Source: Janibacter limosus (lineage in GTDB: Bacteria; Actinomycetota; Actinomycetes; Actinomycetales; Dermatophilaceae). Taken from it: DNA of 64,000 nt. Positions 26,389-46,486 of the stretch are shown here, one piece after another. The translations under genes were made by a program, and so were the position numbers. The stretch covers positions 682,001 through 746,000 of the forward strand of contig NZ_CP036164.1 of NCBI RefSeq assembly GCF_004295485.1, given 5' to 3'. Positions within the stretch are counted from its first letter, which is position 1, and every line of letters begins with the position of its first letter. Under the pieces are notes generated by a model. The model was not told the origin of the DNA, ran no database searches, and was given only the letters and a program-made list of their open reading frames with translations.

Positions 26389-26412
26389 GGAGATGTTGTC
26401 CACAGGTCAGAA

Positions 26413-26450: not shown

Positions 26451-26517
26451 TTCTGGTCGGTGGGCCGGAGGGAGGACCCGCTCACGTCACCGCACGATCG
26501 TACGAAGGGGGCTGGAC

Positions 26518-30664: not shown

Positions 30665-31143
30665 CCTCCCTTCGAGCCGCTGTGCGTCAGCGTTGGCGCG
30701 ATGACAGTGGGCAGCTGAGCGTCCTCGTGCTCGGTCTGACCGTCATCGCGATGACGTTGATCATCGGGGGGTTGGCCGTCACATCGGTGCAGATCTCCCG
30801 GATGCGGCTGCTCGACGCGGCCGACTCGGCCGCGCTCGGCGCCACCGATGATGGTGCCGAGCGGATCTATGACGACGGGGTGGGCGCCGACCTGCCCCTC
30901 GATGACGCCAGCGTCCGGGAGAGCGCCGCGACGCATCTGTCCGAGCGGTCACGGCCTCACGGACTGGAGAGCTGGGCCGTCGCGCCGGGCACCGGGAGCC
31001 CTGACGGTCGCACTGCGGTCGTGGTGCTCACGGGTGAGGCCGATCTGCCCCTCATCGGCGGGCTGCTGCAGTCGATGGGTGGGTCGGTCACGCTCACCGT
31101 CGAGTCGAGGGCCCGAGCTGGCGTGGTCACCGCCCCGCAGTGA
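30661..31143 (+). CDS. TadG-like Flp pilus protein (locus B)
   Basis: A 160-residue protein. It starts with DDSGQLSVLVLGLTVIAMTL, a hydrophobic helix, then VQISRMRLLDAADSAALGAT, the typical TadG-like N-terminal pattern. The rest is a small extracellular domain with no von Willebrand module, so it is a short form. ATG overlaps the previous stop. It is the last gene of locus B; the next gene starts 148 bases on, and I see no clear hairpin in that gap. Confidence 0.8.
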   Translation: MTSLRAAVRQRWRDDSGQLSVLVLGLTVIAMTLIIGGLAVTSVQISRMRLLDAADSAALGATDDGAERIYDDGVGADLPLDDASVRESAATHLSERSRPHGLESWAVAPGTGSPDGRTAVVVLTGEADLPLIGGLLQSMGGSVTLTVESRARAGVVTAPQ

Positions 31144-31291: not shown

Positions 31292-32653
31292 GTGGAGCAA
31301 CAACTGTCTGGGGAATCGTCCCCGACCCAGTCGGCCGACAAGGGCGAGTCCACCGAGGCCAGGTCGACCTCTGGCACGACGGTCCAGTCCGAGATCACGG
31401 ACGAGCCGGGCGGCACCGATGCAGGAGCAGCTGAGCCAGCCGACACCGACCGGGGATCCACCGACGAGGTCGTCCACACCAGCGACGGTGAGGTCATCCC
31501 CGAGGACGAGGCGGCGCCCGACGCGGAGACGATCCCGGTGAGCGAGCTGCGCACACCCGAGCGAGAGCACGAGCACGACGAGCTCCCGATCAAGGCGCGG
31601 GTCTCGCTGCCCCCGACCCTCACCCTTCTGCTCGGTCTGGCCGCCACGGTCATCGCGATCGCCGGTCTCAAGCAGGTCGCCGGCATCATCGCCCCGACCT
31701 TCCTCGCGGCGACGCTGATCATCGCGGTCTACCCGATCTACAAGACGCTGCGGCGATTCCTCGGGGGAGCCATCGCCGGACTGCTGCTCATCGTCATCCT
31801 CTACGGGATCCTCGCGGCCCTGGGCGCCTCGATCGGTATCGCGGCGAGCAAGTTCGCGTCCGAGCTGGCCAGGCCCGAGTACACGAGCACCTTCACCGGC
31901 CTCGTCTCCGACGGGCGTGACTTCCTGACCTCCAAGGGGATCGAGGCACAGGAGATCGATGATGCCATCGCCAACTTCGACCTGCGCAACCTGACCGGTC
32001 TCGCGAGCTCGCTGGCCAACACGGTCACCGGGCTGACCACGACCATGCTCTTCCTGCTGACCGTGATGATCTTCCTCGTCATGGACGCCGGCGGCTTCGC
32101 GCGGCGGCTCGCGGCGATCCACCGTCACAAGCCTGACGTGGCGGATGCGCTCGTCGACTTCGGCTACCGGGTGCGCAAGTACTGGATCGTCTCGACGGTC
32201 TTCGGTGTCATCGTCGCGGTGATCGACTACATCGCGCTGATGTGGCTGGGGGTGCCGCTGGCGATGACCTTCGCCCTGCTGTCCTTCGTCACCAACTACA
32301 TCCCCAACATCGGCTTCGTCCTCGGTCTCATCCCACCGGCCTTCATCGCGCTGCTCTCCGGAGGGGTGTCGACGATGGTGTGGGTCATCGCCATTTACTG
32401 CGTCGCCAACTTCCTCATCCAGACGATCCTGCAGCCGAAGTTCACCGGCGACGCCGTCGGCATCAACGGCAGCACAGCCTTCCTGTCGCTGATGTTCTGG
32501 GCCTATGTCTTCGGCGCGCTCGGGGCCCTGCTTGCCATCCCCTTCACCCTCCTCTTCAAGAGCTTGCTGATCGATCGCGACCCCAGCGCGCGGTGGGTCA
32601 ACCAGTTCATCGCGAGCTCCCCGGAGGAGGGGACGAGCGCGCAGCCGACGTAG
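31292..32653 (+). CDS. AI-2E (YdiK/PerM) family membrane permease
   Basis: A 453-residue protein. The first 105 residues are acidic, Ser/Thr-rich and probably disordered (a long cytosolic extension). Eight hydrophobic segments follow, in the family order. Motifs include LAATLIIAVYPIYKTLRRFL, TTTMLFLLTVMIFLVMDAGG, FALLSFVTNYIPNIGFVLGL and LQPKFTGDAVGINGSTAFLS. The family is named for autoinducer-2 export, but members do various transport jobs and the substrate here is unknown. GTG start at 31292 follows GGGAG. It precedes prfB. Confidence 0.88.
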   Translation: MEQQLSGESSPTQSADKGESTEARSTSGTTVQSEITDEPGGTDAGAAEPADTDRGSTDEVVHTSDGEVIPEDEAAPDAETIPVSELRTPEREHEHDELPIKARVSLPPTLTLLLGLAATVIAIAGLKQVAGIIAPTFLAATLIIAVYPIYKTLRRFLGGAIAGLLLIVILYGILAALGASIGIAASKFASELARPEYTSTFTGLVSDGRDFLTSKGIEAQEIDDAIANFDLRNLTGLASSLANTVTGLTTTMLFLLTVMIFLVMDAGGFARRLAAIHRHKPDVADALVDFGYRVRKYWIVSTVFGVIVAVIDYIALMWLGVPLAMTFALLSFVTNYIPNIGFVLGLIPPAFIALLSGGVSTMVWVIAIYCVANFLIQTILQPKFTGDAVGINGSTAFLSLMFWAYVFGALGALLAIPFTLLFKSLLIDRDPSARWVNQFIASSPEEGTSAQPT

Positions 32654-32688: not shown

Positions 32689-33801
32689 GTGGCTGTCGAC
32701 TTCGAGACCGAGATCAAGAACCTCCGCACGACCATGGGATCGGTGCGTGAGGTCACCAACGTGCCTGCCCTCGAGACGCAGATCGCGGACCTGGAGCAGC
32801 AGGCAGCCGCTCCCGACCTGTGGGACGACCCGGACAAGGCGCAGGGTGTGACCTCGGCGCTGTCCCGCGCCAACCACGAGCTCGAGCGCATCAACACCAT
32901 GGACGCCCGCATCGACGACCTCGAGGCCCTCGTCGAGCTCGGCCAGGAGGAGCGGGACGCAGACACGCTCGCCGAGGCCGAGGAGGAGCTGGCCAAGGTC
33001 GCCAAGTCCGTCGGCCAGCTCGAGGTCCGCACGCTGCTCGCCGGGGAGTACGACGAGCGCGAGGCCGTCGTCACCATCCGCGCTGGCGCCGGTGGTGTCG
33101 ACGCCGCGGACTTCGCCGAGATGCTCATGCGCATGTACCTGCGTTGGGCCGAGCGGCACGGCTACCCGACCAAGGTCATGGACACCTCCTACGCCGAGGA
33201 GGCAGGGCTGAAGTCCGCCACCTTCGAGGTCAACGTCCCCTACGCCTACGGCAACCTCTCCGTCGAGGCGGGGACCCACCGCCTCGTGCGGATCTCGCCC
33301 TTCGACAACCAGGGCCGCCGCCAGACCTCCTTCGCCGCCGTCGAGGTCATCCCGCTCATCGAGAGCACCGACTCCATCGACATCCCGGACGGCGAGCTGA
33401 AGATCGACGTCTTCCGCTCCTCGGGCCCCGGCGGCCAGTCGGTCAACACCACGGACTCCGCGGTGCGCATGACGCACATCCCGACCGGCATCGTCGTGTC
33501 GATGCAGAACGAGAAGTCACAGATCCAGAACCGTGCGGCTGCTCTGCGCGTCATGCAGTCGCGACTGCTGCTGGCCAAGAAGGCCGAGGAGGCCGCCGAG
33601 CGCAAGGAGCTCGCCGGCGACGTCAAGGCGAGCTGGGGTGACCAGATGCGCTCCTACGTGCTGAACCCGTACCAGATGGTCAAGGACCTGCGCACCGAGC
33701 ACGAGACGGGCAACCCGTCCCCGGTCTTCGACGGCGAGATCGACGCCTTCATCGAGGCTGGCATCCGCTGGCGCATCGAGCAGGCCAAGTCCGAGGACTG
33801 A
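32689..33801 (+). CDS. prfB: Peptide chain release factor 2
   Basis: A 370-residue RF2 that reads UGA and UAA stop codons. The anticodon-like tripeptide SPF is at residues 203-205 (RISPFDNQG), and the GGQ loop near 249-251 ([13 protein letters not shown]) triggers peptide release. The frame is open from the GTG at 32689 to the stop, so the programmed +1 frameshift that autoregulates prfB in many bacteria is absent. Further downstream comes a lipoprotein gene with its own promoter. ftsE lies 13 kb away here, whereas prfB and ftsE are adjacent in many actinobacteria, so the Tad and lipoprotein genes may have been inserted between them. Confidence 0.97.
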
Positions 33802-33867: not shown

Positions 33868-34003
33868 GGGGAGCAACAATCTGCTGGCAGCAGGCTCGAT
33901 CACCCGACGTCCGCGACGTGCAAGGTGCGCTGGAGTCCGCGTGTGATGGGTTGGACCGAGTTCGGGGCCTCTGTATCCTCGGTCGAGATCGGGGAGGATG
34001 CTG

Positions 34004-34603
34004 ATGCGCGAAGTGCGCGAGTTGATGGGGATGACCGCGCTGTGCGCTGCCCTCATGATGACGGTGGCCGGGTGTGGCGACAGCGGCGGCGGTGAGACGA
34101 CGGAGCCCTCGACCACGTCCTCCAGCAGCACGTCGTCGCAGCCCACCTACGACGAGAACCACATCATGGATGAGGTCCGCAGGGTGGACAAGGAGCTGAG
34201 GAAGCTTGGCCCGAACGACAAGATCTCGGCGGATGCGGCGTGGGCGACAAGCGGCTACCGGACCGCATACAACGAAGGGGTCGCGGCGACAGAAGACGCC
34301 GGAGCGAAGCTGAAGGGCAAGGTCACGACGGACTCCCTTTGTCTCGCCGACTCCGAGCCGGATGCACCGGGCGGATGGAATGTGACCGTCTACCTCTGCG
34401 CCACGAGCACGGTGCGCGCGTACATCGATGGAGAAGACGTCTCCGCGGATCCCGAGGACTCGAGCAAGCCACTGCCCAAGGGGCCGCGGACGAGCGCCTT
34501 CCTCGAGAGCTTCACGACGCCTGATGGTGGCAGGACATGGCAGCTTGACGACTCGCAGGTACTGACGGGGACAGATGGGGAGAAGGCGCGATGCGGCGGC
34601 TGA
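34004..34603 (+). CDS. Lipoprotein of the duplicated secreted module (copy 1)
   Basis: A 199-residue lipoprotein with lipobox VAGC, the lipidated Cys being residue 24. A Ser/Thr-rich linker (residues 28-50) is followed by a globular domain of about 140 residues. I chose the ATG at 34004 because GGGGAGG lies six bases upstream; an ATG at 33998 is too close. The pattern CLADSEPDAPGGWNVTVYLCATSTVRAYI ends in a Trp-containing strand (GGRTWQLDDSQVLTG). The same layout occurs in the opposing gene at 36525-37112. It overlaps the secreted-protein gene by 13 bases. Function unknown; I suspect an NTF2-like surface domain, unproved. Confidence 0.8.
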   Translation: MREVRELMGMTALCAALMMTVAGCGDSGGGETTEPSTTSSSSTSSQPTYDENHIMDEVRRVDKELRKLGPNDKISADAAWATSGYRTAYNEGVAATEDAGAKLKGKVTTDSLCLADSEPDAPGGWNVTVYLCATSTVRAYIDGEDVSADPEDSSKPLPKGPRTSAFLESFTTPDGGRTWQLDDSQVLTGTDGEKARCGG

Positions 34604-35472
34604 TTGCGACGAGGCGGCTGATTGCGACCATCGGTCTGTTCACGCTCTGCGTGGGTGCGGCACCAGCGGTGGCGAGCACCACGGAATGCCTTGATGGCAC
34701 CACGCGCACGGTGAACCACAACCAGATCGTGATCGAGGCAGATCATTGCACCGGGGACGACAACCGTGATGAGGACCATGAGCGTGACGGTAAAGGTCAG
34801 CGCGACGCTGAGGACGACTCCACGTCGGGTGAGTCCTCGGGACCGACCAGGCGGACGGTCTCGGACAAGGTGTACTGGGAACTCTGGGAGAGGTGTCGGC
34901 GGGGACCCAACCTTGACGCCCTCTCCATCCAGTGCGTGGCGGGGCTGCCAGATCGGGAGGGAGACGCGCCGGCACCCGATGCGCCGGCAGTGACGGTTGA
35001 GCAGGTGCGGGAGAGCGCGATCGCTCAGATCGACATGGGTGCGCCGGAGATCGGTGCTTCGCCCTGCCTGACAGCGGCGGATGCCTGTCGGGGAACGGTG
35101 GGTGTGCCGGTGTGGTTGTGGGTCGGTGACGGCACGGGTTCGTTGCCATCTGACTCGGCGACGGTGACGGCGGGGCCCTACACGATCACGGCGACGGCGA
35201 AGGTGTCGAAGGTGAAGTGGTCTCTGGGTGATGGGCAGAGCGTGGCCTGTCACAGCGTGGGGACGAAGTACGACCCGCAGCGTGATGGCTGGTCTTCGCC
35301 GGCGTGTGGTTTTGACGCAGGGTGGACGCAGGCGGGCACCTACACGTTGACGGCGTCGTATGTCTGGGAGATCTCGTTTTCGGGTGATGCGACGGGGTCG
35401 ATGACGCAGACACTGACCTCGACCGAGCGGGTTACCGTGGGTGAGCTGCAGAGCGTGGCAACGACAGGCTGA
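34591..35472 (+). CDS. Secreted protein with GTVGVPVW domain (copy 1)
   Basis: A 293-residue exported protein. A signal peptide covers residues 1-29 (LIATIGLFTLCVGAAPAVAS), followed by a charged low-complexity stretch and a C-terminal domain (about 155-293). That domain carries GTVGVPVWLW, KVSKVKWSLGDGQSV, paired Cys (ACHSVG, PACGF), TYTLTASYVWEISF and ERVTVGELQSV. It looks like a PKD/Ig-like beta sandwich. Similar proteins in streptomycetes are mislabelled ATP/GTP-binding and lie near Tad-type genes, as I recall. The start overlaps the lipoprotein gene and has GGGGAGAAGG upstream. A paralogue lies head-on at 35620-36528. Confidence 0.82.
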   Translation: MRRLIATRRLIATIGLFTLCVGAAPAVASTTECLDGTTRTVNHNQIVIEADHCTGDDNRDEDHERDGKGQRDAEDDSTSGESSGPTRRTVSDKVYWELWERCRRGPNLDALSIQCVAGLPDREGDAPAPDAPAVTVEQVRESAIAQIDMGAPEIGASPCLTAADACRGTVGVPVWLWVGDGTGSLPSDSATVTAGPYTITATAKVSKVKWSLGDGQSVACHSVGTKYDPQRDGWSSPACGFDAGWTQAGTYTLTASYVWEISFSGDATGSMTQTLTSTERVTVGELQSVATTG

Positions 35473-35502
35473 TCGTCTCCTCCCAGTGCGTGCCTCCTGG
35501 GG

Positions 35503-35611
35503 GCGCCTGTGCAGTCGGACCAGGATGGGCAAGGGTGGAAGGCCGCGGGTAGGTACACGGTGACGGCGTCATACGTCGGGGAGCTGCAGAGCGTGGCCAC
35601 GACTGGCCGAC
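35503..35611 (+). pseudogene. Decayed third copy of the GTVGVPVW-domain C-terminus
   Basis: Between the two convergent paralogues, frame 1 reads GWKAAGRYTVTASYVGELQSVATTG. This matches AGTYTLTASYV joined directly to GELQSVATTG of the intact gene at 34591-35472, so about 25 residues between these blocks are deleted. No start or other domain is present. It is a remnant of tandem duplication or misalignment, and its DNA is closer to copy 1 than to copy 2. Confidence 0.75.
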
Positions 35612-35619
35612 GGTCGCCG

Positions 35620-36528
35620 TCAGCCTCTCTTGGAGGTGACGGCCTGATACTCGCCCACGGTGATCTGCTCGCTCGAGGTGCTGGTGACCGTGGTGCTGCC
35701 GGTCGCGTCCCCGCCGAAGGTCACGGCATAGGTGATGGTCGCGGTGGTGGTGTAGTTGCCGGCCTTGGTGTAGCCGTTGGGCAGGCCGCAGTCGGGGCTC
35801 GAGGCCCAACCCATGCTCGAGGTGTAGGTCGTACCGGCGCTGGTGCAGGTGACCGACTGGCCGTCACCGAGTGACCACACCACCTTGGACGGCTTCGCGC
35901 TGACGCTCACGGTGAGACCTCCTGCGCTGGCGCTGTCGCTGTAGGTCTTCCACTGGTCGCCCTCCAACCAGAACCAGACGGGGACACCGACGGTGCCCTT
36001 GCAGTTGACGCCAGTGCAGGGCGCAGAGCCCATGTCGGGCTTGGGGAGCGAGATCTTGGCCATGGCCATCGAGATGACCTGCTCGATGGTCACCCTCGGG
36101 GGCGTGGGGGTCCCGGGTGTCGCGGGCGTCGCCTCGCAGGGCTCGTACACGTATGGCACGACGAGGACGCCGCACGGTGGTGGACCCGAGGGTTGGCCGG
36201 TGGTCGGGTCGAAGGCGCCGGGCTCCTGCCTCTCCCACTCGGCCAACGCTGCCTCCCGGTCGTAGTCGCCCATGTCGAACGACACCTCGTACCCGGGCTC
36301 GGAGGGGCCGCTCGGGGCATTGCCCGTGGACTGCCCCTCGGACTGATGTCCCTCGGACCCGGGCTCCTCGGTCCGTGTCTCCTCGTGGGACACGGCGATC
36401 GACGTGCAGTTGTTCTGCTCGTCGCAGACCTGCTTCGTCTGATGATCGGCCTGCGCGGGCGCAGCCGTGGCCAGTGCCATCGCTGCAGGTAGGAGCACGG
36501 ACGCAGTCACCTTGGAGAACGTGATCAT
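35620..36528 (-). CDS. Secreted protein with GTVGVPVW domain (copy 2, inverted)
   Basis: A 302-residue exported protein. The signal peptide at residues 1-27 ends in ATAAPAQA. Then come an acidic Glu/Ser-rich region and the same C-terminal domain as copy 1: GTVGVPVWFW, KPSKVVWSLGDGQSV, CTSAGTTY, PDCGL, FGGDATGS and EQITVGEYQAV. The DNA of the two copies is well diverged, so the duplication is old. ATG 36528 overlaps the stop of its lipoprotein partner (ATGA). Two Cys near the N-terminus (CDEQNNC) may form a disulfide. The gene pair has the same order and coupling as copy 1 but lies in the opposite direction. Confidence 0.82.
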   Translation of the reverse strand: MITFSKVTASVLLPAAMALATAAPAQADHQTKQVCDEQNNCTSIAVSHEETRTEEPGSEGHQSEGQSTGNAPSGPSEPGYEVSFDMGDYDREAALAEWERQEPGAFDPTTGQPSGPPPCGVLVVPYVYEPCEATPATPGTPTPPRVTIEQVISMAMAKISLPKPDMGSAPCTGVNCKGTVGVPVWFWLEGDQWKTYSDSASAGGLTVSVSAKPSKVVWSLGDGQSVTCTSAGTTYTSSMGWASSPDCGLPNGYTKAGNYTTTATITYAVTFGGDATGSTTVTSTSSEQITVGEYQAVTSKRG

Positions 36529-37112
36529 GATGCTGCCTTCTCCAGGTCACAGGTCGACTTGTAGCCGACCTCGGTGGCACTGACCTGCCAGTCGGACGAC
36601 GTCGTGGCACGCTCGAAGGTGATGAGGTTGACCACCTCGGTGCCGTCCGCGATCGGTTTGCCGTTGCGATCGGTGCGGATGTTGGTCCCGGCGGGGATCG
36701 TGTCGGTTCCGTTGTCGTAGGCCTTCGTGGCGATGAGCTGCCGATGGACCTCGTAGCACACCTCGACCGTGGCCTTGGTGTCGGACGAGGTCCTGGTCTC
36801 ACTGGCCGTGAGCTCGTCCTTGCCCTTGACGGTCACGTCGGGAAAAACCTTCGACGACTCGACCTGACGCTTGTACGACTCGGCTCCCAGAACCGCCTTG
36901 AGCTCCTTGCTCGGCGGCTCGGACGGGTTTGACTCGTTGCTCAGGCGCCAGTAGTCGCGGAACACCTCCGTGACCTGGGCCTCTCCGGCATCCTTCGAGG
37001 GAAGGGGGGAGGTCGCCGACTCGGCAGGCTCCGCGTCCTCTCCGCACGCGCTCGCAGCGAGACCGATCGCGGCGATGACGCCAGCGGTGATCATCATCCG
37101 AGGGGCAATCAC
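36525..37112 (-). CDS. Lipoprotein of the duplicated secreted module (copy 2, inverted)
   Basis: A 195-residue lipoprotein with lipobox ASAC (lipidated Cys 23). A Ser/Glu-rich linker is followed by a domain with helix YWRLSNESNPSEPPSKEL and strands VTVKGKDELTASETRTS, KATVEVCYEVHRQLIATKAY and TSSDWQVSATEVG. Order of elements resembles the opposing lipoprotein at 34004-34603 (KGKV..., VTVYLC..., TWQLDDSQV), so I infer distant homology. GTG at 37112 with GGAG eight bases upstream; ATG 37097 is an alternative. It is divergent from Tad locus C, separated by 156 bases that may hold promoters for both (for example TTACCGT at 37223-37229 for the rightward side). Confidence 0.75.
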   Translation of the reverse strand: MIAPRMMITAGVIAAIGLAASACGEDAEPAESATSPLPSKDAGEAQVTEVFRDYWRLSNESNPSEPPSKELKAVLGAESYKRQVESSKVFPDVTVKGKDELTASETRTSSDTKATVEVCYEVHRQLIATKAYDNGTDTIPAGTNIRTDRNGKPIADGTEVVNLITFERATTSSDWQVSATEVGYKSTCDLEKAAS

Positions 37113-37268: not shown

Positions 37269-37952
37269 ATGACTGCAGCACCGAGTATCGAGGCTCCGGC
37301 GCCTCCCGCGGGGGGTGCCGCGCGCGACGAGGTCACGGCGATCAAGCCCCGTCGCAACATGCGTCTGGTCCTCCTCGGCGTGGCGCTGGCCGTCGTCTTC
37401 GCTCTGCTCGCGGTCTGGGCCGTCAACCGCGCTGGCGAGGCCCGCAGCGTCGTGGTGGTCGTCAAGGACATCCGCGCGGGCGACCAGATCGCGTCCTCGG
37501 ACCTGGCCACGACCCAGCTGCGTGGTGGCGATGACGTGCAGACGGTGCCGTCGTCCAAGCTCAACTCCCTCATCGGCAAGCGAGCCGAGCAGGGCATGCC
37601 TGCCGGGACACTCGTCACCGAGTCGGATTTCGAGAACCGCATCACGCCCCGATCCGGCGATGCGATCGTCCCGATCGCCGTCACCTCCGGGCAGTTCCCC
37701 GCCAGTGGCCTGCAGCGAGGGGACGTCGTGCGCGTGGTCGTCACGGGTGGCGGTCAGAACATCGAGGGGCTCGAGCCGGGCACCGCCTTCAGCGGCGTCA
37801 TCCTCGCCCTGGGCGACCCCGACGACAAGGGCGGCATGACGGTCGACGTCTCCATCTCCTCGGCCGACGCCCCGTCCGCGGCCGCGGCCGCCGGTACCGG
37901 CCGGATCGCCATCATCAATGTCGCACCGGGCGGCACGGGTCAGGACGGCTGA
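37269..37952 (+). CDS. SAF-domain (CpaB/RcpC-like) protein (Tad locus C)
   Basis: A 227-residue protein with one membrane helix at about residues 33-52 (LVLLGVALAVVFALLAVWAV). An SAF domain follows (DIRAGDQIASSDLATTQLRG ... QGMPAGTLVTESDF), then a beta domain with RGDVVRVVVTGGGQN. It is homologous in layout to the SAF protein at 3748-4422. GGGGG lies upstream of the ATG. It opens locus C; the next gene starts three bases after its stop. Confidence 0.85.
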   Translation: MTAAPSIEAPAPPAGGAARDEVTAIKPRRNMRLVLLGVALAVVFALLAVWAVNRAGEARSVVVVVKDIRAGDQIASSDLATTQLRGGDDVQTVPSSKLNSLIGKRAEQGMPAGTLVTESDFENRITPRSGDAIVPIAVTSGQFPASGLQRGDVVRVVVTGGGQNIEGLEPGTAFSGVILALGDPDDKGGMTVDVSISSADAPSAAAAAGTGRIAIINVAPGGTGQDG

Positions 37953-37955
37953 CTC

Positions 37956-38747
37956 GTGGCCCTGCACATCTTCACCTCCCTCAGCGGAGCGCCGGGCGTC
38001 ACGTCGACGGCCATGACCTGGGCACACGTCAGCGACCGGCCGACCCTCCTCGTGGAGGCCGACCCGGCGGGCGGCTCACCGATGCTGTGCATCGGGTGGG
38101 GCGGGGCGCACCCGCACAACCGATCGATCCTCGACCTGGCCGTCCATCCCCCCGGTGAGTACGTCGAGAGGGTCTGGGAGCTGGCGATCCCGCTTCCCGG
38201 GCGTGAGCGCGAAGCCTGGTTGGTGCCGACGGTCGGGATGACCGCGCAGATGCGGTCCCTGATGGGCGTCTTCGGCCCGCTCGGCGAGGCGCTGGCGCGG
38301 ATCAGCCTCGACAGCAATGTCGACGTGCTCGTGGACCTCGGGCGACTCGGGGCAGCGGGCTCCTCCACCCAGTTGTGGGCGCACGCCGACACCGTCCTGG
38401 TCTTCACCGACAGCACGCTGCAGGCCCTCAACACCCTTGCGGTCGGCCTCCCTTCGCTCGCCGACGAGCTCGACGGTGTCGGTGCACGCCACCGGCTGGC
38501 GGTCGTCCCCGTCCTCGGCGACGAGAAGGGGGCATCCAACCGGCCGTACGGGACGCGCGAGATCAGCGGCATCACGGGCGGGATCCCGGTCCTGTCCGGC
38601 GTCGCACGCGATGCCAAGGCCGCAGGATCGCGCACGTGGGGCAAGCGCGGGCGGTACCCGGTCAGCGTCAAGCGGCTCATCGCCAGCGTCGACCAGCACG
38701 CCCGGTCGGCCAACGACGTCATGGGCGTCGCGGGAGCGACAGCATGA
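37956..38747 (+). CDS. ParA/CpaE-like protein with degenerate P-loop (Tad locus C)
   Basis: A 263-residue MinD/ParA-fold protein. The strand and loop ALHIFTSLSGAPGVTSTAMT stand where KGGxGKST would be, with no Lys at all. TLLVEADPAGGS then resembles the switch I/Walker B region and VDVLVDLGRLGAAG the second Walker-like strand. It probably occupies the CpaE slot of the pilus machine but may not hydrolyse ATP. GTG start at 37956. Its stop overlaps cpaF (ATGA, 38744-38747). Compared with the CpaE-like gene at 4422 it lacks the receiver-like N-terminus. Confidence 0.75.
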   Translation: MALHIFTSLSGAPGVTSTAMTWAHVSDRPTLLVEADPAGGSPMLCIGWGGAHPHNRSILDLAVHPPGEYVERVWELAIPLPGREREAWLVPTVGMTAQMRSLMGVFGPLGEALARISLDSNVDVLVDLGRLGAAGSSTQLWAHADTVLVFTDSTLQALNTLAVGLPSLADELDGVGARHRLAVVPVLGDEKGASNRPYGTREISGITGGIPVLSGVARDAKAAGSRTWGKRGRYPVSVKRLIASVDQHARSANDVMGVAGATA

Positions 38748-40438
38748 GCGCCAAGTCGACGCCCGACCCCACCCAGCCGACGGACCTGCCGATCTTCGCC
38801 CAGCGTCCGGCACCCCCTTCGCGGGCACTCGGGGGGGCAGCTCCCTTCGCCCAGCGCCAGGGAGCCATGCCCCCACCGCCGCCACCGGCACGCCACGGCG
38901 CCACGCCACAGGCGCCCCATGCCCTCCCGAACGAGGCGCCCGAGTCCACCGCTCCGCGCTCGACCCTGCCGGCGAGCCAGCCACCGCCGCCACCGGGGGA
39001 GATCGCCGACGTCGACGGGGTGGACCGGTCGACCGGAAGGCGTCAGTCGCAGATCCGCGCGGCACTCGAGCGACTCGAGCGAGTGGACTGGGCGGCGGTC
39101 CAGCACCTGCGCAGCCAGGTCAGCGCGTCCCTGACCCTCGTGTCCGAGGACACCGTCCTCGACGAGACCCGCCACCGCACGGCGGTCGCCCGACTGACCA
39201 CGCAGGCCATCGACGACTGGACCCAGGACCGCATCGCGCGCGGCGAGGGGCTCGTCTCGCTCGACGGCCAGGCCGCGCTGCGCGAGGCGGTGCTCGACTC
39301 GATGTTCGGTGCCGGGCGGCTGCAACCGCTCCTCGACCTGCCGGGGATCGAGAACATCGAGATCGAGGGCCACGACGGAGTCACCCTCGAGTTCAGCGAC
39401 GGCTCGCTCGAGACCGGGCCTCCCGTCGCCGACAGCGATGCCGACCTGATCACCGAGATCCAGCACCTGGCGCGCACGTCGTCGACGGGGGAGCAGCAGT
39501 TCTCCATGGTCAGGCCGTGGCTGCGTCTCGCCCTGCCCGACGGCTCCCGCATGGCGGCCGAGGCGTGGCTGTCGCACCGGCCCTCGATCACCATCCGCAA
39601 GCACCCGTACATCGACACCGATCTCACGCAGATGAAGGAGCTCGGTGCGATCGACGACTCGCTCCACGCCTTCCTCTCGGCGGCGATCCGGTCGGGCAAG
39701 AACGTCATCGTCTCGGGCGACGCAGGGTCCGGCAAGACGACCCTCGTGCGAGCGCTGCTCAACGAGCTGGACCCACGAGAGCGTCTGGCGACCATCGAGG
39801 CGCAGTACGAGCTGCTCATGCACCGCCTGCCCGAGCGGCACCACCGCGTGTGGGCGGCCGAGGCACAGGGCGGGGGAGAGGTGGGCGCCGACGGGCGACC
39901 CGTCGGCGAGGTGACGCTGACGCGGCTCATCGAGCTCAGCCTGCAGAAGAACGTCACCCGCATCGTCGTCGGCGAGGTCGTCGGCGAGGAGGTCATGGCC
40001 ATGATGGAGGCCATGCAGGGCGGTCGCGGCTCGATCTCGACAGTGCACGCCCACTCCGCCCTCGACACGGTCGAGCGCCTCGTCACCCTCATCACCCGTG
40101 CCCGCAGCAATGTCGACACCTCCTTCGGCTATCGCCTGGTCGCCCAGAACGTCGACCTCGTCGTCCACGTCGGACTCGTCGACGAGTCGCACCTGCCGGG
40201 CGGGCGCAAGTGGCGTCACGTCGACGAGGTCGTGGCGCTCGAGGTCTCGCGTGACACGCACGTGGCCCACACCCGGATCTTCGAGGCGGACGAGTTCGGT
40301 CGAGCCCGCCCGACGGGTCAGCTGCCGCAGTGGATCAGCGACATCGAGCGGCACGGGTTCGACGCTGGCTGGCTCGATCCGTCAGCGAGCACCTGGGGCC
40401 CTCCGCCCGAGCTGCTCATCCGGCACAGGACGGCCTGA
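38744..40438 (+). CDS. cpaF: CpaF/TadA-type secretion ATPase (Tad locus C)
   Basis: A 564-residue secretion ATPase. The first 95 residues are Pro-rich and disordered (short runs of five or six prolines). Then come a helical domain and RLQPLLDLPGIENIEIEGHD, Walker A GDAGSGKTTLV (about 325-335), the Asp/Glu box ERLATIEAQYELLM, Walker B RIVVGEVVGEEVMAMMEAMQ and His box GSISTVHAHSA. An insertion rich in Gly/Glu follows the Glu box (AEAQGGGEVGADGRPVGEVT). It differs clearly from the ATPase of locus B, so the two loci are not recent copies. It is coupled to tadB (TGATG, one-base overlap). Confidence 0.92.
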   Translation: MSAKSTPDPTQPTDLPIFAQRPAPPSRALGGAAPFAQRQGAMPPPPPPARHGATPQAPHALPNEAPESTAPRSTLPASQPPPPPGEIADVDGVDRSTGRRQSQIRAALERLERVDWAAVQHLRSQVSASLTLVSEDTVLDETRHRTAVARLTTQAIDDWTQDRIARGEGLVSLDGQAALREAVLDSMFGAGRLQPLLDLPGIENIEIEGHDGVTLEFSDGSLETGPPVADSDADLITEIQHLARTSSTGEQQFSMVRPWLRLALPDGSRMAAEAWLSHRPSITIRKHPYIDTDLTQMKELGAIDDSLHAFLSAAIRSGKNVIVSGDAGSGKTTLVRALLNELDPRERLATIEAQYELLMHRLPERHHRVWAAEAQGGGEVGADGRPVGEVTLTRLIELSLQKNVTRIVVGEVVGEEVMAMMEAMQGGRGSISTVHAHSALDTVERLVTLITRARSNVDTSFGYRLVAQNVDLVVHVGLVDESHLPGGRKWRHVDEVVALEVSRDTHVAHTRIFEADEFGRARPTGQLPQWISDIERHGFDAGWLDPSASTWGPPPELLIRHRTA

Positions 40439-41289
40439 TGACCGGCTTGGCGATCATTGCCGCACTCGGTCTCGCCGTGGCCATCACCCTCATCGCCGCG
40501 GGACTGACCACGCCGCCGCCGGCCCCGACGCGTCCGCGGGCCCGGCGCAGGCAGAGCGCCACCTTCAGCCCGGTCGACCGTCGCAACCTCGCCATCGGTG
40601 GCGTCGTCGGCCTACTGCTGGCCCTCTACGGATGGGTCATCGCCCTGATCATCCTGCCCGTCTTCGCCGTGGCGCTCCCGTGGCTGATGCGGATCGACCG
40701 GGGCACCACCCCCGAGCAGCTCGAGGCGGTCGAGGAGTGGGTCCGGTCCCTCTCGGGTGTCATCGGCGCAGGGCAGGGCATCTCCGGTGCGATCATCGCG
40801 ACCCGGGTGTCCTGCCCCGACGAGATCCGACCGCAGGTCGACCTGCTGATCAGCCGCATCCATGCCCGCCGACCCTTGGCGGACGCCCTGTACGCGTTCG
40901 CCGACGACGTCGACAACCAGATCGGCGACTTCGTCGCGACAGCCCTGATCCAGGCTGCCCAGCACGAGGGCGCCGGCCTGCGTGAGGCGCTCGGGGGGAT
41001 CGCCGCCGACGTCACCGAGGAGGTGCGGGCACGGCGCGACATCGAGGCCTCGCGCGCTGGGGCGCGCACGCAGGCCCGCCTCATCACCATCGTGGTCATC
41101 GGCGTGCTGGCCCTCTTCGTCTTCTTCACCCCCATCGGTGCCCAGTACCGGACGCCCAACGGCCAGGCCGGCCTGCTGATCCTGTCCTTCCTCTTCCTCG
41201 GGGCCCTCTACTGGCTCAAGCGAGTGGCGACGGTCAAGCCCCTCGCCCGATTCCTCGTCCGTCCCGCCACGACAGGGCCGCAGCAATGA
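40438..41289 (+). CDS. tadB: TadB-like type II secretion F-family protein (locus C)
   Basis: A 283-residue membrane protein. It has N-terminal helices (GLAIIAALGLAVAITLIAAG, AIGGVVGLLLALYGWVIALI), a cytoplasmic T2SSF domain (LEAVEEWVRSLSGVIGAGQG ... IQAAQHEGAGLREALGGIAA) and two C-terminal helices (LITIVVIGVLALFVFFTPIG, AGLLILSFLFLGALYWL). ATG shares one base with the cpaF stop. The stop overlaps tadC (ATGA). Fourth position of the locus C operon. Confidence 0.88.
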   Translation: MTGLAIIAALGLAVAITLIAAGLTTPPPAPTRPRARRRQSATFSPVDRRNLAIGGVVGLLLALYGWVIALIILPVFAVALPWLMRIDRGTTPEQLEAVEEWVRSLSGVIGAGQGISGAIIATRVSCPDEIRPQVDLLISRIHARRPLADALYAFADDVDNQIGDFVATALIQAAQHEGAGLREALGGIAADVTEEVRARRDIEASRAGARTQARLITIVVIGVLALFVFFTPIGAQYRTPNGQAGLLILSFLFLGALYWLKRVATVKPLARFLVRPATTGPQQ

Positions 41290-42176
41290 GCCCGCTGGCG
41301 CTGGCCATGGCGATCTCGGCGATCGCGGGCCTCGGCGTGGCACTCGTCATCGCAGGACTCGTCCCGGCCAAACCCGACCTGGGCGCGGCTGTCGACCGGA
41401 TGCGCCCGCAGACGATGCGGCAGAGCCGGGGCGCCGATGCCGCGTCGACCGACTGGACCCGGACCGAGGTCATCGGAGCGTGGGCGAGGCGCCGGACCGA
41501 CCGGTACACCGTCCTCAAGGCACCGCTCGAGGACCTCGAGCTACTGCAGATCCCGGTCGAGGAGCACTACGGCAAGAAGGCGATCGCGGCCGGAGCCGCT
41601 CTCGTCGGCTGCACACTGCTACCGATGGTCCTGGGCTTCGGCTTCGTCATCCCCTTCGGCATCGGCCTGGCCTTCGCCGTCTTCGCGTGGTTCGTGCCCG
41701 ACCTGACGGCCCGCGATCGCGCCAAGGCAAGTCGTGAGGACTTTGCCTACGCCGCGGTGTCCTACCTGCGTCTGGTCGCGATCGCCCGTCGCGCGGGACT
41801 CGGGCTCGTCGCCTCGCTCGACTCTGCTGCCCGCAAGTCGGACTCGTGGATGTTCCTGCGCATCCGCGAGGAGCTGCGCCTGGCCCGGTGGTCCGGCGAG
41901 ACCTCGTGGGACGCGCTGGAGCGCCTGGCCGGTCGGACCAAGGTGCCCGAGCTGAAGGAGGTCGCCGACATCATCCGACTCGCCAACGACTCCGGGGCGA
42001 GTGTCAGCGACAACCTGCTGGCGCGCGCCGCCTCTATGCGTGACCGGTTGCTCACCCGGGAGCAGACCGCCGCCAACTCCGCCACGAGCTCGATGGGCGT
42101 CCCCCTCGCGGCTCTGGCCGTCCTCTTCCTCATCGCCATGCTGATCCCCGCTGCCATGCAGCTCTCCCCGGGCTGA
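41286..42176 (+). CDS. tadC: TadC-like type II secretion F-family protein (locus C)
   Basis: A 296-residue membrane protein. It has an N-terminal helix (ALAMAISAIAGLGVALVIAG), a central hydrophobic pair (AAGAALVGCTLLPMVLGF, FVIPFGIGLAFAVFAWFV), a T2SSF domain (YAAVSYLRLVAIARRAGLGL, EVADIIRLANDSGASVSDNL) and a C-terminal helix (VPLAALAVLFLIAMLIPAAM). ATGA overlap with tadB. A 48-base gap with a strong ribosome site follows before the small pilin gene. Confidence 0.87.
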   Translation: MSPLALAMAISAIAGLGVALVIAGLVPAKPDLGAAVDRMRPQTMRQSRGADAASTDWTRTEVIGAWARRRTDRYTVLKAPLEDLELLQIPVEEHYGKKAIAAGAALVGCTLLPMVLGFGFVIPFGIGLAFAVFAWFVPDLTARDRAKASREDFAYAAVSYLRLVAIARRAGLGLVASLDSAARKSDSWMFLRIREELRLARWSGETSWDALERLAGRTKVPELKEVADIIRLANDSGASVSDNLLARAASMRDRLLTREQTAANSATSSMGVPLAALAVLFLIAMLIPAAMQLSPG

Positions 42177-42224: not shown

Positions 42225-42440
42225 GTGATTCGCTTCATCGTCGTCATCTCCATGCTCTGCATGGCACCTGTCCGTCACCTCGATCGCGCGCTCGAGGCAC
42301 GCGGCCAGGACCCTGAGGCCGGCCTGACCACCCTCGAGTACGTCATCCTCGGTGCCCTCGTCCTGGCGGTCGTGGTCACGGTCGCTGCCGTCATCACGGG
42401 CAACCTCGAGAGCTGGGCCAACCAGATCCCGAGCCCCTGA
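42225..42440 (+). CDS. Flp-type pilin candidate (locus C)
   Basis: A 71-residue protein. A leader of about 32 residues ends in DPEAGLTTLEYVILGALVLA, with Gly before the helix and Glu at position 5 of LTTLE, the Flp pilin pattern. A single helix and a short tail follow (ITGNLESWANQIPSP). The GTG at 42225 has AGGAGGA four bases upstream, the strongest ribosome site of the locus, as expected for the major subunit. The N-terminus is itself hydrophobic (IRFIVVISMLCMAPV), which is unusual; a later start is possible but none with a good ribosome site is seen. Confidence 0.78.
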   Translation: MIRFIVVISMLCMAPVRHLDRALEARGQDPEAGLTTLEYVILGALVLAVVVTVAAVITGNLESWANQIPSP

Positions 42441-42865: not shown

Positions 42866-43281
42866 GACGTGGCGACGACGGCAGCATCACCCTGGAGATG
42901 GCCATCTGTGCGCCCGTCCTCGTGGGCATGCTCCTCCTCGTGGGCATCTTCGGGCGCACTGCCATGGCCAACTCGCACGTCGACGGAGCGGCCTTCAGCG
43001 CTGCTCGGGCCGCCTCGCTCGAGCGATCCGGCAGCGCAGCGCAGACCGCCGGTGAGACCGCCGCGCGCGACTATCTCGACCAGCAGGGCCTCGCGTGCGA
43101 GGACGTCACCGTCTCCGTCGACACGAGCGGGTTCTCCGCACCCGTGGGGACGTCGAGCCAGGTGCGCGCCTCGGTCTCCTGCCGGGTGCCGCTGTCCGAC
43201 CTGGCCGCCCTCGTCCCGACGCGGGACCGGACGTACACGGGCGTGGCGGTCAGTCCCATCGACCGCTTCCGAGGACGGTGA
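42862..43281 (+). CDS. TadE-like pseudopilin 2 (locus C)
   Basis: A 139-residue protein. A very short leader, DDGSITLEMAICAPVLVGML with the conserved Glu, then HVDGAAFSAARAASLE and an outer domain with two Cys (LACEDVTVSV, SVSCRVPLSDL) that could form a disulfide. GTG overlaps the previous stop and GTGA overlaps the next gene. Confidence 0.8.
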   Translation: MRRGDDGSITLEMAICAPVLVGMLLLVGIFGRTAMANSHVDGAAFSAARAASLERSGSAAQTAGETAARDYLDQQGLACEDVTVSVDTSGFSAPVGTSSQVRASVSCRVPLSDLAALVPTRDRTYTGVAVSPIDRFRGR

Positions 43282-43709
43282 TCGCGGTGCCGCACTTCTC
43301 CCGACGCCTCGCTGACGAGAGCGGCTACGTCGCCGTGTGGACCGTGGTCATCGGCAGCGCCCTCATGCTGGCCGGCGGCGTCGTCTACGACTCCGCGGAC
43401 AAGGCCAACGAGGCTCGTCGCGTGACCATGGTCGCCAACGAGGCCGGTCGGGCCGCGGCCCAGGAGGCCAGCCCCGAGGTCATCGCCGGGTCCTCGGCCG
43501 GGGTGGACCCCGCCCGGGCAGCGCAGGCGGCGCGTGACTACCTCGCGGCCACGGGCATCGACGGAGAGGTGAGCGTCAGCGGCACCAGCGTGACGGTGAC
43601 GACCTCCCAGGGGTGGACGCCCAAGATCATGCCTGTGCTCCAGCCCGACACCCTCACCGCGACCTCTGTCGTCGACCTGGAGCGGGTCGACCCGGGCGTG
43701 GCCCCATGA
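43278..43709 (+). CDS. TadE/TadG-like pseudopilin 3 (locus C)
   Basis: A 143-residue protein with a leader, DESGYVAVWTVVIGSALMLA, one hydrophobic helix and KANEARRVTMVANEAGRAAA, then a small outer domain. It lacks the Glu of the other two, so it is closer to TadG-like N-termini. GTG 43278 overlaps the previous stop; GTG 43287 is possible. ATGA overlap with the LysM-BTAD gene shows that this regulator-like protein is made from the same message as the pilins. Confidence 0.75.
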   Translation: MIAVPHFSRRLADESGYVAVWTVVIGSALMLAGGVVYDSADKANEARRVTMVANEAGRAAAQEASPEVIAGSSAGVDPARAAQAARDYLAATGIDGEVSVSGTSVTVTTSQGWTPKIMPVLQPDTLTATSVVDLERVDPGVAP

Positions 43710-46486
43710 CCCCGGCAGCGCGACAGTCCCGGGGGCGGGTGCTGCTCCGAGGACTCGTCTCGCTCGTGGGGATCGTGCTCATCCTGGTCGGTCTGCCGGT
43801 CGCGCTGATCGTCCTCGGCGGCAACCCTCTCCCGGCAGAGGTCCCGTCGCTGGGCGAGATGGTCGACGCGCTCACCCGGCCGGACGACGGAACCCTGATC
43901 ATCGCCATCATCACGGTCGTCGGCTGGCTCGTCTGGGCGACTCTCGCGATGTCCTTCCTCGTGGAGATCCCGGCCGCCATCCGCGGGGTTCCTGCGCCTC
44001 GGCTGCCCGGTCTGTCGTGGCAGCAGGGGCGCGCTGCCGCCATGACCGGCGCGGTGGTCGCGATGCTGGCCATCGGTGCGGTGGGTGCCGGCAGCGCGAC
44101 GCCGGCCAGCGCCCTGGCGCACGACTCCGGGGCCAACGCCCTGGCGCACGACTCGGGCTCGAGCACGTCGACGGGCGCCGACGCCGTGGCCTCGTCCGTC
44201 TCCGGCGGTGCGGTGGGCCACGTGGTCACGGTGCGGTCGGGAGACACCCTGTGGGACATCGCCGACCGAGAGCTGGGCGACGGTCAGCGCTACCCCGAGC
44301 TGCTCGCCTCGTCGGCCGGTCTGCCGCAACCTGACGGGGGGACCCTGACAGCAGCGGACGACATCCGACCCGGGTGGCTGGTGATGATCCCGACGCCCAC
44401 GCATGCACCGGCTGCACCGGCTGCACCGGCTGCACCGGCTGCACCGGCTGCACCGGTTGCACCGGTTGCACCGGCTGCACCTTCGGCGGCCGCGCTACAG
44501 CTCGACGCGATGATGAGCAACGAGGGTGGATCCGCGGCATCGGCAGCCGACGCGGACGTGGTCGCGCCGGCCCCGACCACGGCCCCCGCACCGGCTCCTG
44601 ATGTGCCTCCTGCCGCCACCACTGCCGGCTCGGTCACCGCGCCACCGGATGGCCCCGTCCACTCGGTCAGCGAGAGCGACCGCCACGGACCCTCGAGTGC
44701 CACGGGACTGGGGCTCGTGGCAGGAGCCGCTGTCCTCGCCTTCGTCGAGGCTCGCCGCCGCCGGCAGCGTAGGGGCCGGCGGCCCGGATGGCGTCTGGTG
44801 CTGCCCTCGGACGTGGCGACCCGCACCGAGTGGTGGTTGCGCGGAGCCTCGGACCTGCCCGGCCACGCCGACCTCGATGCCGCCCTGTCGGACCTCGCGG
44901 CCCGGTGCTCTCCCGCGTCCTTCCCCTCGCTGCGTGCCGCTCGCCTCGGTGAGAGCGAGATCGAGGTCTACGTCGTGGAGGAGCACCTGCAGCTCCCCGC
45001 CCCCTGGATCTCGGCGGGCGGTGGCACCTGGATCCTTGGCCGCCGTCAGGTGCCCACCCACCACCAGCCGCTCCGTACGCCGTGGCCTGCTCTGGTGACG
45101 ATCGGGGAGGACGAGGCCGGAGCCCGGATCTTCGTCAACCTCGAGGAGATCGGGACCCTCGAGCTGCACGGACGGGCCCAGGAGTCGCAGGCCGTCCTCA
45201 CCGCCCTCGCCGTCGACCTGGCGACCTCGGACCACGTCCGTCACCAGGTGACGGTCGTGGGCGCCCTGGCCGACCTCGTCGAGGCCGTGGACAACCCCCG
45301 CGTCACCCACAGCGCTGACGTGGCCGAGGTCCTCGCTCGGCTCGAGCAGGGACTGGGCAGTGGGCTCGACCCGCAGATCCTGCTCATCGCCTCGACTCTC
45401 GGCCGCGATGAGACCGAGCGCCTGCGCGCGCTGCTCGCCGCCTCTCGACGAGGAGCCTTGTCGGTGGTCTCCACGTCCCGTGGCCTGGCCGACTGGTCGA
45501 TGGTGGTCGAGACCCACCGCGAGGGACTCTCGGCCGTCCTGGCCCCGGTGGGGATGTCCCTGCGGCCGGCCGCCGTGACCGGTCCGGGCTATGGCGAGCT
45601 CCTGGAGCTGCTGCGGTCCGCCGTTCGGCCGACGGTCCCGGGGCCGGCCTGGACGGCTGGCTCCGACCACGACCCGTTGACGATCGCCACCGTCCCCCGC
45701 CGCCGTGTCGCGCCGGTCGGAGAGGTCGACCGGCCCACTCCCTCGCCGCCTCCCGTCGATGGCGCCGCCCACGTGCGCGTCCTCGGTCGTGTGCAGGTGG
45801 CTGGAGCGGGACCGGCGCCTGCCGACGAGTCGCGCGCGGCCGAGCTGGTGACCCTGCTGTCCCTCCATCCGGGGTCGGATGCCCACGGGCTGGCCGCGGC
45901 CCTCGACCTGCCGCCGCTCGCCGTCCAGGCCGCCATGCAGGACATCAACCGCTGGCTCGGCTCGGACGGTTCCTCGGTGGTGCGCGAGGCCGACGGCCAC
46001 TACCACCTCGGCGGGCCGCTGCTCGACTGGAACCGCCTGCGCACCCTCGTGGGGCCGGCGGTCGCCACCGCCGACTCGGCCAGCGTGCGCGCGGCCCTGA
46101 CGCTCGTCACGGGCCAGCCCCTCGACGGCGTGCCCCAGGACCGATACGGCTGGGCCGCGTCGGACCGACTGGAGATCTGTGCCGCGGTCGCGGACATCGC
46201 GCACGAGCTCGCCCAGCGGTCGCTGCGTGAAGGCGACCCCGACGCAGCGAGCTGGGCCGCCCGCAAGGGCCTGCTCGCCGAGCCGGTGAGCGAGACCCTG
46301 TGGCGCGATGCCGTCCACGCCTCATGGCAGAGCGAGCAGGTGGAGCAGGCCCGCGACATCGCCGAGACCGCCCGCCGGACACTGGGCCACCTGGGCTCGC
46401 TCGAGACGGACACGACCCTCGTGGTCGAGCGCCTGGAGCGCCGCGCGTCCGCCGAAGATGCCGCGACCCTGCGACCGCAGGCATAA
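43706..46486 (+). CDS. Transmembrane LysM-BTAD protein (locus C regulator candidate)
   Basis: A 926-residue protein. Three hydrophobic segments lie in the first 130 residues (LVSLVGIVLILVGLPVALIV, IIAIITVVGWLVWATLAMSF, AAAMTGAVVAMLAIGAVGAG). A LysM module follows at about 170-228 (VTVRSGDTLWDIADRELG), then an Ala-Ala-Pro repeat and a Pro-rich stretch. A fourth helix is at about 330-348 (GLGLVAGAAVLAFVEA), with an Arg-rich stop-transfer RRRRQRRGRR. The long cytosolic part ends in a BTAD-like helical domain (about 690-915: SLHPGSDAHGLAAALDLPPL, WLGSDGSSVVREADGHYHLG). BTAD occurs in SARP/AfsR-type regulators. LysM would sit in the wall and BTAD in the cytosol. It is the last gene of the Tad operon. 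Confidence 0.82.
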   Translation: MTPAARQSRGRVLLRGLVSLVGIVLILVGLPVALIVLGGNPLPAEVPSLGEMVDALTRPDDGTLIIAIITVVGWLVWATLAMSFLVEIPAAIRGVPAPRLPGLSWQQGRAAAMTGAVVAMLAIGAVGAGSATPASALAHDSGANALAHDSGSSTSTGADAVASSVSGGAVGHVVTVRSGDTLWDIADRELGDGQRYPELLASSAGLPQPDGGTLTAADDIRPGWLVMIPTPTHAPAAPAAPAAPAAPAAPVAPVAPAAPSAAALQLDAMMSNEGGSAASAADADVVAPAPTTAPAPAPDVPPAATTAGSVTAPPDGPVHSVSESDRHGPSSATGLGLVAGAAVLAFVEARRRRQRRGRRPGWRLVLPSDVATRTEWWLRGASDLPGHADLDAALSDLAARCSPASFPSLRAARLGESEIEVYVVEEHLQLPAPWISAGGGTWILGRRQVPTHHQPLRTPWPALVTIGEDEAGARIFVNLEEIGTLELHGRAQESQAVLTALAVDLATSDHVRHQVTVVGALADLVEAVDNPRVTHSADVAEVLARLEQGLGSGLDPQILLIASTLGRDETERLRALLAASRRGALSVVSTSRGLADWSMVVETHREGLSAVLAPVGMSLRPAAVTGPGYGELLELLRSAVRPTVPGPAWTAGSDHDPLTIATVPRRRVAPVGEVDRPTPSPPPVDGAAHVRVLGRVQVAGAGPAPADESRAAELVTLLSLHPGSDAHGLAAALDLPPLAVQAAMQDINRWLGSDGSSVVREADGHYHLGGPLLDWNRLRTLVGPAVATADSASVRAALTLVTGQPLDGVPQDRYGWAASDRLEICAAVADIAHELAQRSLREGDPDAASWAARKGLLAEPVSETLWRDAVHASWQSEQVEQARDIAETARRTLGHLGSLETDTTLVVERLERRASAEDAATLRPQA
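44404..44481 (+). repeat. 9-bp tandem repeat (Ala-Ala-Pro) in the LysM-BTAD gene
   Basis: About 8.7 head-to-tail copies of TGCACCGGC, two of them TGCACCGGT, encode AAP/VAP triplets between the LysM module and the inner membrane helix. A 27-bp period repeat (ALAHDSGAN) also lies at 44111-44154 just before the LysM. Copy number may vary between strains without breaking the frame. Confidence 0.95.

Follow-up and report, generated by a model that had tools for sequence, protein, structure and literature searches.

A 64,000-nucleotide stretch of the Janibacter limosus genome (NZ_CP036164.1, positions 682,001 to 746,000; this whole stretch is referred to as the window) contains two copies of a gene pair in which the gene for a lipoprotein overlaps that for a secreted protein. 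The pair is widespread across Actinomycetes and apparently undescribed; we found no paper describing it by title or abstract start, in a literature search that left subscription journals and preprints mostly outside its coverage. By position the pair belongs to loci for Tad-type pili, and by predicted fold the secreted protein is PKD-like and the lipoprotein NTF2-like. That the pair functions with Tad pili in some way is very probable, and we tentatively propose that its two proteins form an extracytoplasmic accessory complex at the exit or anchor of the pilus encoded by the adjoining locus, Tad-2.

We named the four genes lipP and secP (P pair) and lipM and secM (M pair). On the + strand, lipP (33998..34603) encodes a lipoprotein with a Ser/Thr-rich linker and overlaps by 13 nucleotides with secP (34591..35472), whose secreted product has a variable N-terminal part and a PKD-like C-terminal domain at approximately residues 145-288. 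Head-on to secP, on the - strand, lies secM (35620..36528), which encodes a second secreted PKD-like protein and overlaps by 4 nucleotides with lipM (36525..37112), the gene of the second lipoprotein, whose model is NTF2-like. All four open reading frames (ORFs) are open and complete over these coordinates. The original prediction, which was made without database searches, had started lipP at 34004, the second ATG in frame, and we use 33998. Both lipoproteins have a lipoprotein signal peptide with the lipobox cysteine (VAGC in lipP, ASAC in lipM). The predicted arrangement of two units facing each other, each a lipoprotein gene followed by an overlapping gene for a secreted protein, is borne out by these reading frames, coordinates and overlaps.

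The secreted proteins are 49% identical over 156 columns (E 2e-33). GTVGVPVW and GDATGS are common to both, SKVKWSLGDGQSV in secP has the counterpart SKVVWSLGDGQSV in secM, and the C-terminal endings are TVGELQSV and TVGEYQAV, respectively, so that all of the strings claimed as shared are present. The lipoproteins had been called alike only "weakly", and this is right: direct comparison of lipP with lipM gives no match (22%, E 0.49), and both are found by a hidden Markov model (HMM) of the family. This model rests on 59 lipoproteins from other genomes, taken as rows of an alignment made jointly beforehand, with 12 rows held out and Z = 1000, and it matches the whole proteins with E 1.5e-10 (lipM) and 1.8e-9 (lipP), or 1.6e-4 and 1.4e-3 after removal of the first 45 residues. 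Judged by sequence, lipP and lipM are remote homologues only.

A single-sequence search with secP returned 62 proteins, Janibacter sp. proteins among them. The secreted gene is present in 44 of 149 genomes of the family (secM query), and in 56 of 297 genomes of the order and 98 of 296 of the class (alignment query). We fetched 120 loci of at most 20 kb each (44 from the family, 36 from the order and 40 from the class sample), which were hand-chosen, mostly from the better-scoring matches, with some genomes contributing several. Within them, 125 ORFs match the secreted C-terminal domain, and a lipobox gene lies directly upstream of 112 (99 under a stricter rule), which confirms that the pair is conserved. 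A single blastp component unites 109 of these 112 lipoproteins. The most frequent junction, with 66/112 cases, is an overlap of 7 bases that leaves cysteine as the last residue of the lipoprotein. Five lower-scoring loci of 12 kb likewise have a lipoprotein HMM match beside the secreted gene in 5/5 cases; two of them contain a Tad-2 set (L174, L175), one a LysM match only (L177), and two neither (L176, L178). In two loci of the window's genus (L155, L171), the order is reversed, with the secreted gene followed by the lipoprotein gene after the LysM gene.

The lipobox cysteine, C119 and C188 (lipM numbering) are invariant in 71 of 71 aligned lipoproteins, rows that had been picked by their lipobox, and C119 and C188 of lipM may be joined in a disulfide. 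An alignment of 99 secreted proteins likewise has two invariant cysteines, C220 and C239 in secP, which may also form a disulfide, and the W, G, D and G of a WxxGDG stretch are nearly invariant. By a crude rule, 116 of the 125 secreted matches have a hydrophobic N-terminus. A set of 106 secreted proteins used below, which is the 112 paired ones minus six that lack a secreted start, was pre-chosen for this feature, so that its 106/106 is no test of the signal.

The pairs had been described as lying between two Tad loci. The gene order in the window agrees with this, being Tad-1, an AI-2E-type transporter, prfB, the two pairs (33998-37112), Tad-2, ftsE, ftsX and an M23 peptidase, but the transporter and prfB part the module from Tad-1, whereas Tad-2 directly abuts it. 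The P pair has the same direction as Tad-2, and the M pair the opposite one. Using the Tad proteins of the window as tblastn queries, and counting as Tad-linked any locus in which at least three of eight Tad-2 queries matched, we found 82 of the 120 loci to be Tad-linked (family 40/44, order 18/36, class 24/40). A secreted gene is on the strand of TadA in all 82 (of TadC in L094). It lies immediately before the SAF-domain gene in 49, otherwise upstream in 8 and downstream in 25, several of the downstream cases sitting after the LysM gene. Tad-1-type proteins are rarely near, with TadB1 matches in 8 and TadC1 matches in 5 of the 120 loci. Chance adjacency is rejected on two counts, the lipoprotein in 112/125 matches and the strand shared with Tad genes in 82/82 loci.

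Co-occurrence points the same way. Among the 149 family genomes, 40 contain both the secreted gene (44 genomes) and a strong TadA2 match (E <=1e-40; 49 genomes), 4 the secreted gene only, 9 TadA2 only and 96 neither (Fisher p 6e-23), as counted by hand from two listings that seem to come from one draw, since the listed handles agree. At the order level the corresponding counts are 17, 5, 9 and 88 (p 3e-10), where two draws were joined and the "secreted only" and "neither" values are estimates. In two of the secreted-only family genomes (G034, G055) the pair is followed by SAF and ParA genes that run into contig edges, and in a third (G118) the secreted gene, SAF, ParA and a piece of TadA also run into a contig edge; the last (G030) has a weak match (E 3e-4, residues 7-89) without an HMM match. 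The HMM detects a pair in one TadA2-only genome (G144), where the pair stands at the end of the operon with its gene order reversed, and in another (G036) the stretch stops at a contig edge. The HMM found no secreted gene in the stretches of the other seven, whose TadA matches are among the weaker ones. A further genome (G101) has no pair between prfB and SAF and has two pairs elsewhere. The predicted tie to Tad genes therefore stands on both linkage and co-occurrence, but it is a tie to Tad-2, a type defined by SAF, ParA-like, TadA and LysM proteins, and not to both Tad loci. Nor does the domain occur mostly without Tad genes or lipoprotein partner in these samples, although the order sample is Tad-linked in only 18/36 loci.

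In trees of 27 rows, the window's P copy groups with four P-type rows and its M copy with three M-type rows, in the secreted and lipoprotein trees alike, and each pair has thus been copied and kept as a unit. Lipoprotein and PKD-end distances over 108 pairs, taken without species-tree correction, correlate with r = 0.66, a value reached by 0 of 500 permutations; over 12 genus rows the correlation is 0.87. Head-on P and M pairs occur in three of the nine genus genomes in the draw (G000, G075, G132), the stretch from J. hoylei carries a single pair, of M type and divergent from SAF, and G117 has a P-type pair after the LysM gene. The head-on layout is a lineage variant. Both copies have been kept under purifying selection, as had been proposed: the ratio of nonsynonymous to synonymous rates (dN/dS) is 0.22-0.56 for all four genes when the window is compared with G075 and G132. 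Recent duplication is rejected, as synonymous differences between the window copies are near saturation (proportion of synonymous differences 0.60-0.63).

The N-terminal part of the secreted protein is the more variable one. The 108 pairs have a mean identity of 0.27 there, against 0.42 in the PKD end, and N-terminal dN exceeds that of the PKD end by 3-4x against G075 and by 2.3-3.3x against G132. N-terminal dN/dS is clearly higher only against G132 (0.59 versus 0.24 and 0.45 versus 0.27).

Between the two pairs of the window, the + strand at 35532..35605 holds a relic of the 3' end of a further P-type secreted-protein gene (VTASYVGELQSVATTG). Bases 35532-35583 match 35319-35370 over 52 bases without gaps, and the remainder was identified by reading. 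A longer truncated third secreted copy lies between the two pairs of G075 (L034:10095-10958). G000 carries, far from Tad genes, a decayed fused remnant (G000:C1:230558-230779; L004 ~1431-1728) in which a lipoprotein start runs into a secreted C-terminal end.

The lipM model (71 rows; mean predicted local distance difference test score, pLDDT, 87.9; predicted template modelling score, pTM, 0.75) is an NTF2-like alpha+beta cone. VirB8 chains are among its matches, and many other NTF2-like chains tie with them within 1 Z. The secP model (99 rows; mean pLDDT 78.2, pTM 0.61) is confident mainly in the C-terminal part, and its first ~80 residues are poorly predicted. That C-terminal part is predicted to be PKD-like by VIA-align, with a PKD beta-sandwich and a WxxGDG-type motif. 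At E up to 1, Pfam PKD families match some relatives (PF00801 in 31/99 and PF18911 in 32/99, best 2.4e-5) and neither secP nor secM. None of the four window proteins has a match above cut-off in Pfam or NCBIfam. Sequence-profile searches of the PDB gave 0 matches for the secreted family (best E 1.1 with a larger alignment), and for the lipoproteins the best matches cover the signal-peptide and linker end. No profile run names the pair proteins as a known Tad protein. We rejected a minor pilin, since only 1 of 106 secreted proteins fits a loose prepilin pattern in the first 45 residues, and a sortase-anchored protein, since LPxTG occurs in 0 of 106.

In the complex that we propose, the NTF2-like domain of the lipoprotein would sit on the membrane and hold the secreted protein by its conserved PKD end. 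The complex would lie beside a ring of the SAF protein, where the pilus leaves the membrane, with the more variable N-terminal part facing the wall or the outside. This part might serve as an anchor or guide for the pilus on its way through the wall and determine the binding partners of the machine, and several interchangeable pairs per genome could provide variants of the exit complex. The pair would stand in for the outer parts of diderm systems, namely the secretin RcpA, the pilotin TadD and RcpB, and it may help a Tad pilus work in cells without an outer membrane. No secretin was found among the profiled window genes, which are part of its ORFs, and no row is so named in 16 Tad-bearing plasmid stretches. 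We equate the SAF protein with RcpC. In PMC12307814, a text that does not use the term SAF, RcpC of a diderm Tad system is described as a ring of 12-fold symmetry bound to the secretin. According to PMC6916266, monoderm Tad systems lack the secretin, RcpB, RcpC and TadD. A lipoprotein-tethered secreted protein beside a SAF ring is a natural candidate for the missing outer parts. A bolder form of the proposal strikes us as rather improbable: here the pair is the monoderm outer Tad part, a ring of NTF2-like lipoproteins bearing a PKD "crown" on the SAF ring, in which swapping of pairs changes partners, and plasmids of actinobacteria disseminate the whole cassette as a pilus for DNA transfer.

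Several observations weigh against placing the pair at the pilus exit. A passage of PMC3244431 reports rcpC in Gram-positive tad operons, and this, with the SAF gene present here, confines the argument for replacement to the secretin, RcpB and the pilotin. Fewer than three Tad-2 matches lie within ~10 kb of the secreted gene in 38 of the 120 loci (4/44 family, 18/36 order, 16/40 class), some of them near contig ends. Moreover, 8 of 24 genomes with the secreted gene have only weak TadA2 matches (E >1e-40) and no clear Tad-2, 22 of the 24 having been picked because their locus lacked Tad genes. Both the orphan pairs and these eight genomes, which show no clear Tad-2 ATPase, argue against the pair being an obligatory core part. 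Among ten such loci of one family (f35), seven have common flanking genes, taken as local synteny, and the ten show no common dedicated partner beyond the lipoprotein. Conversely, six Tad-2-like loci with SAF and TadA (L158-L163) have no secreted-gene match, although one (L159) shows a weak lipoprotein-HMM match (E 1.7e-5), and L157 has TadA without SAF or the pair. The correlated distances partly reflect species descent. Against G075, N-terminal dS is ~3x that of the PKD end, giving dN/dS of 0.31 versus 0.23 and 0.28 versus 0.28; the N-terminal rate difference is thus partly synonymous, which slightly lowers our confidence in an exit or anchor role. Finally, the best Foldseek match of secP, a PKD domain, has E 5.1e-3, with no PDB match at E <=0.001. 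Conserved extra neighbours of orphan pairs were also considered and rejected, the recurrent matches being shadow ORFs, the lipoprotein itself or presumed local synteny.

Alternatively, and close to the adhesin and receptor suggested in the original prediction, the lipoprotein might hold the secreted protein as a variable adhesin on the surface, outside the exit path, the pilus bringing cells close and the pair binding a surface or partner. Identity of 0.27 in the N-terminal part versus 0.42 in the PKD end, and an N-terminal dN 2.3-4x higher, favour this view, and several pairs per genome, together with pairs away from Tad genes, fit interchangeable binders. Tip complexes of Tad pili are described as varying in Myxococcus, in a section of PMC12075869. 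However, the pair lies directly before SAF in 49 of 120 loci, which is a better fit to a machine part; against G075 N-terminal dS is raised too, and dN/dS hardly differs, which makes this reading slightly less likely; and no recognised binding domain was found, apart from weak CBM_14 matches in 2 of 99 relatives. We consider an adhesin unlikely, but the variability of the N-terminal part and the occurrence of several pairs keep it a close competitor.

The pair is also carried by plasmids. Of 72,556 plasmid records, 178 match secM, and 141 of these are named Streptomyces. In 18 plasmid regions hand-picked from listed rows of the 178 records, with flanks of 6.5-12 kb, lipoprotein and secreted HMM matches lie side by side in every case, and Tad genes are present in 16 stretches; those without are from Pimelobacter, where the record end cuts the stretch, and from one S. 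albidoflavus plasmid. The secreted protein is annotated as "ATP/GTP-binding protein" in 13 regions, which agrees with the misnomer given in the original prediction, and otherwise as "ATP-binding" (1), "PKD domain-containing" (1) or hypothetical (3), and the lipoprotein is annotated as "secreted protein/lipoprotein" in 2. Two proteins for which the examined plasmid records mostly give the names "hypothetical" and "ATP/GTP-binding protein" thus become named candidates beside the SAF gene, and a misleading database name is corrected.

A replication-relaxation protein precedes the pair and Tad cassette in 8 of the 18 stretches, all from Streptomyces (L180, L181, L187, L188, L189, L191, L194, L195), and in these a large hypothetical or "ATP/GTP-binding" protein mostly stands before the cassette. 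PF13814 was confirmed in the one replication-relaxation protein tested. A lytic transglycosylase gene occurs in 5 of the 18 stretches. In plasmids of Curtobacterium and Glutamicibacter (L184, L185), the pair lies between TadG-position genes and LysM, with an A24 or prepilin peptidase after LysM. In the S. albidoflavus plasmid without Tad genes in the stretch (L193), the pair has as its neighbours TcpC (VirB8-like) and an AAA_10 (VirB4-like) ATPase, encoded on the other strand.

The Streptomyces plasmid context suggests a link to plasmid transfer, and Tad-2 with the pair might be a DNA-uptake or mating pilus in which the pair is the module that contacts DNA or mate. Such a role would suit the 178 matching plasmid records, the replication-relaxation protein in 8/18 stretches, the Streptomyces cassettes beside plasmid-transfer-like genes, and the orphan pair next to TcpC and an AAA_10 ATPase; transformation of M. 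luteus requires tad genes, according to a passage of PMC4322843. We nonetheless regard it as quite unlikely, because the window locus is chromosomal, beside prfB and ftsE, PLSDB rates 149 of the 178 plasmids non-mobilizable, and a search of 50,697 phage records with secP found none that matches.

Translational overlap and the NTF2-like scaffold would also be compatible with an export chaperone or quality-control factor, the other role suggested in the original prediction, with the lipoprotein acting at the membrane to fold or inspect the secreted protein or the pilins; PKD proteins may need such folding help. Yet a chaperone would have no need of an extracellular partner that is conserved, co-duplicates with it and has a variable head, and no chaperone or protease family is above the Pfam cut-off in the four window proteins or prominent among relatives, which leaves this role very improbable. 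An effector with its immunity protein, that is, a contact-delivered toxin from which the lipoprotein protects the producer, would account for two co-inherited partners, and Tad-like systems can kill by contact according to a passage of PMC12075869, but we reject it as extremely improbable given that Pfam finds no toxin domain, conservation is strongest at the PKD-like end, the operon usually opens with the lipoprotein gene, and the family has been conserved throughout the class.

The Tad loci around the pairs are as follows. Tad-1 comprises TadA (26353-27747), TadB (by position), TadC (up to 29563), TadE (29817-30212) and Tad/TadG (30661-31143), and is followed by the AI-2E-type transporter (31292-32653) and prfB (32689-33801). 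Tad-2, entirely on the + strand, begins divergently from lipM with the SAF-domain protein (37269..37952; PF08666 E 9.8e-8, 32.9 bits, cut-off 21), which we take to be RcpC/CpaB-like. Next is a putative ParA/CpaE-like protein at the TadZ position (37956..38747), named by position and with no Pfam match of weight. It is followed by the TadA (CpaF) ATPase (38744..40438; PF00437 E 7.7e-23), TadB (40438..41289; PF00482 E 5.2e-9), the starts of both being inferred, and TadC (41286..42176; PF00482 E 4.5e-13). Between the TadC and TadE genes, an ORF of 71 amino acids (42225..42440) contains GLTTLEYVILGALVLAVVVTV, presumably a pilin motif, and is a candidate Flp-type pilin. Two TadE-like proteins (42455-42865 and 42862-43281; PF07811) precede a probable TadG-like protein (43278..43709; by position, with an inferred start), whose position is called TadG-related in plasmid records. 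Before ftsE, an ABC ATPase gene named by its position, Tad-2 closes with a LysM protein (43706..46486), for which Pfam LysM and BTAD matches are below cut-offs and whose position is named LysM in the records.

Known systems resemble the pair in part. VirB8-like proteins such as PrgL and TcpC provide an NTF2-like scaffold in type IV secretion and are anchored by a membrane helix, whereas those of the pair are lipoproteins with a conserved cysteine pair. Bacterial PKD domains, for example in clostridial collagenase G, differ from those of the pair, in which we found no enzyme domain and which have an invariant cysteine pair, a GxVGxPVW strand and, for secP and secM, no recognition by Pfam. The Kil/Tad Tips of Myxococcus are alike in being variable modules that possibly set the specificity of a Tad machine, but they are minor pilins, unlike the pair's secreted proteins, whose N-termini fit a loose prepilin-like pattern in 1/106 only. 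The tad-1/tad-2 Flp system of Micrococcus luteus likewise belongs to an actinobacterial cell with two tad loci, and neither "lipoprotein" nor "secreted" appears as a word in the main text of its study (PMC4322843). The diderm system of RcpC/CpaB, the RcpA secretin and the TadD pilotin shares with the pair a Tad locus and the SAF gene beside it. TadD is a TPR-type pilotin, whereas here the lipoprotein is NTF2-like by its model, the partner is PKD-like and no secretin is seen. The two systems would also be alike in placing a lipoprotein and an exported partner at the pilus exit.

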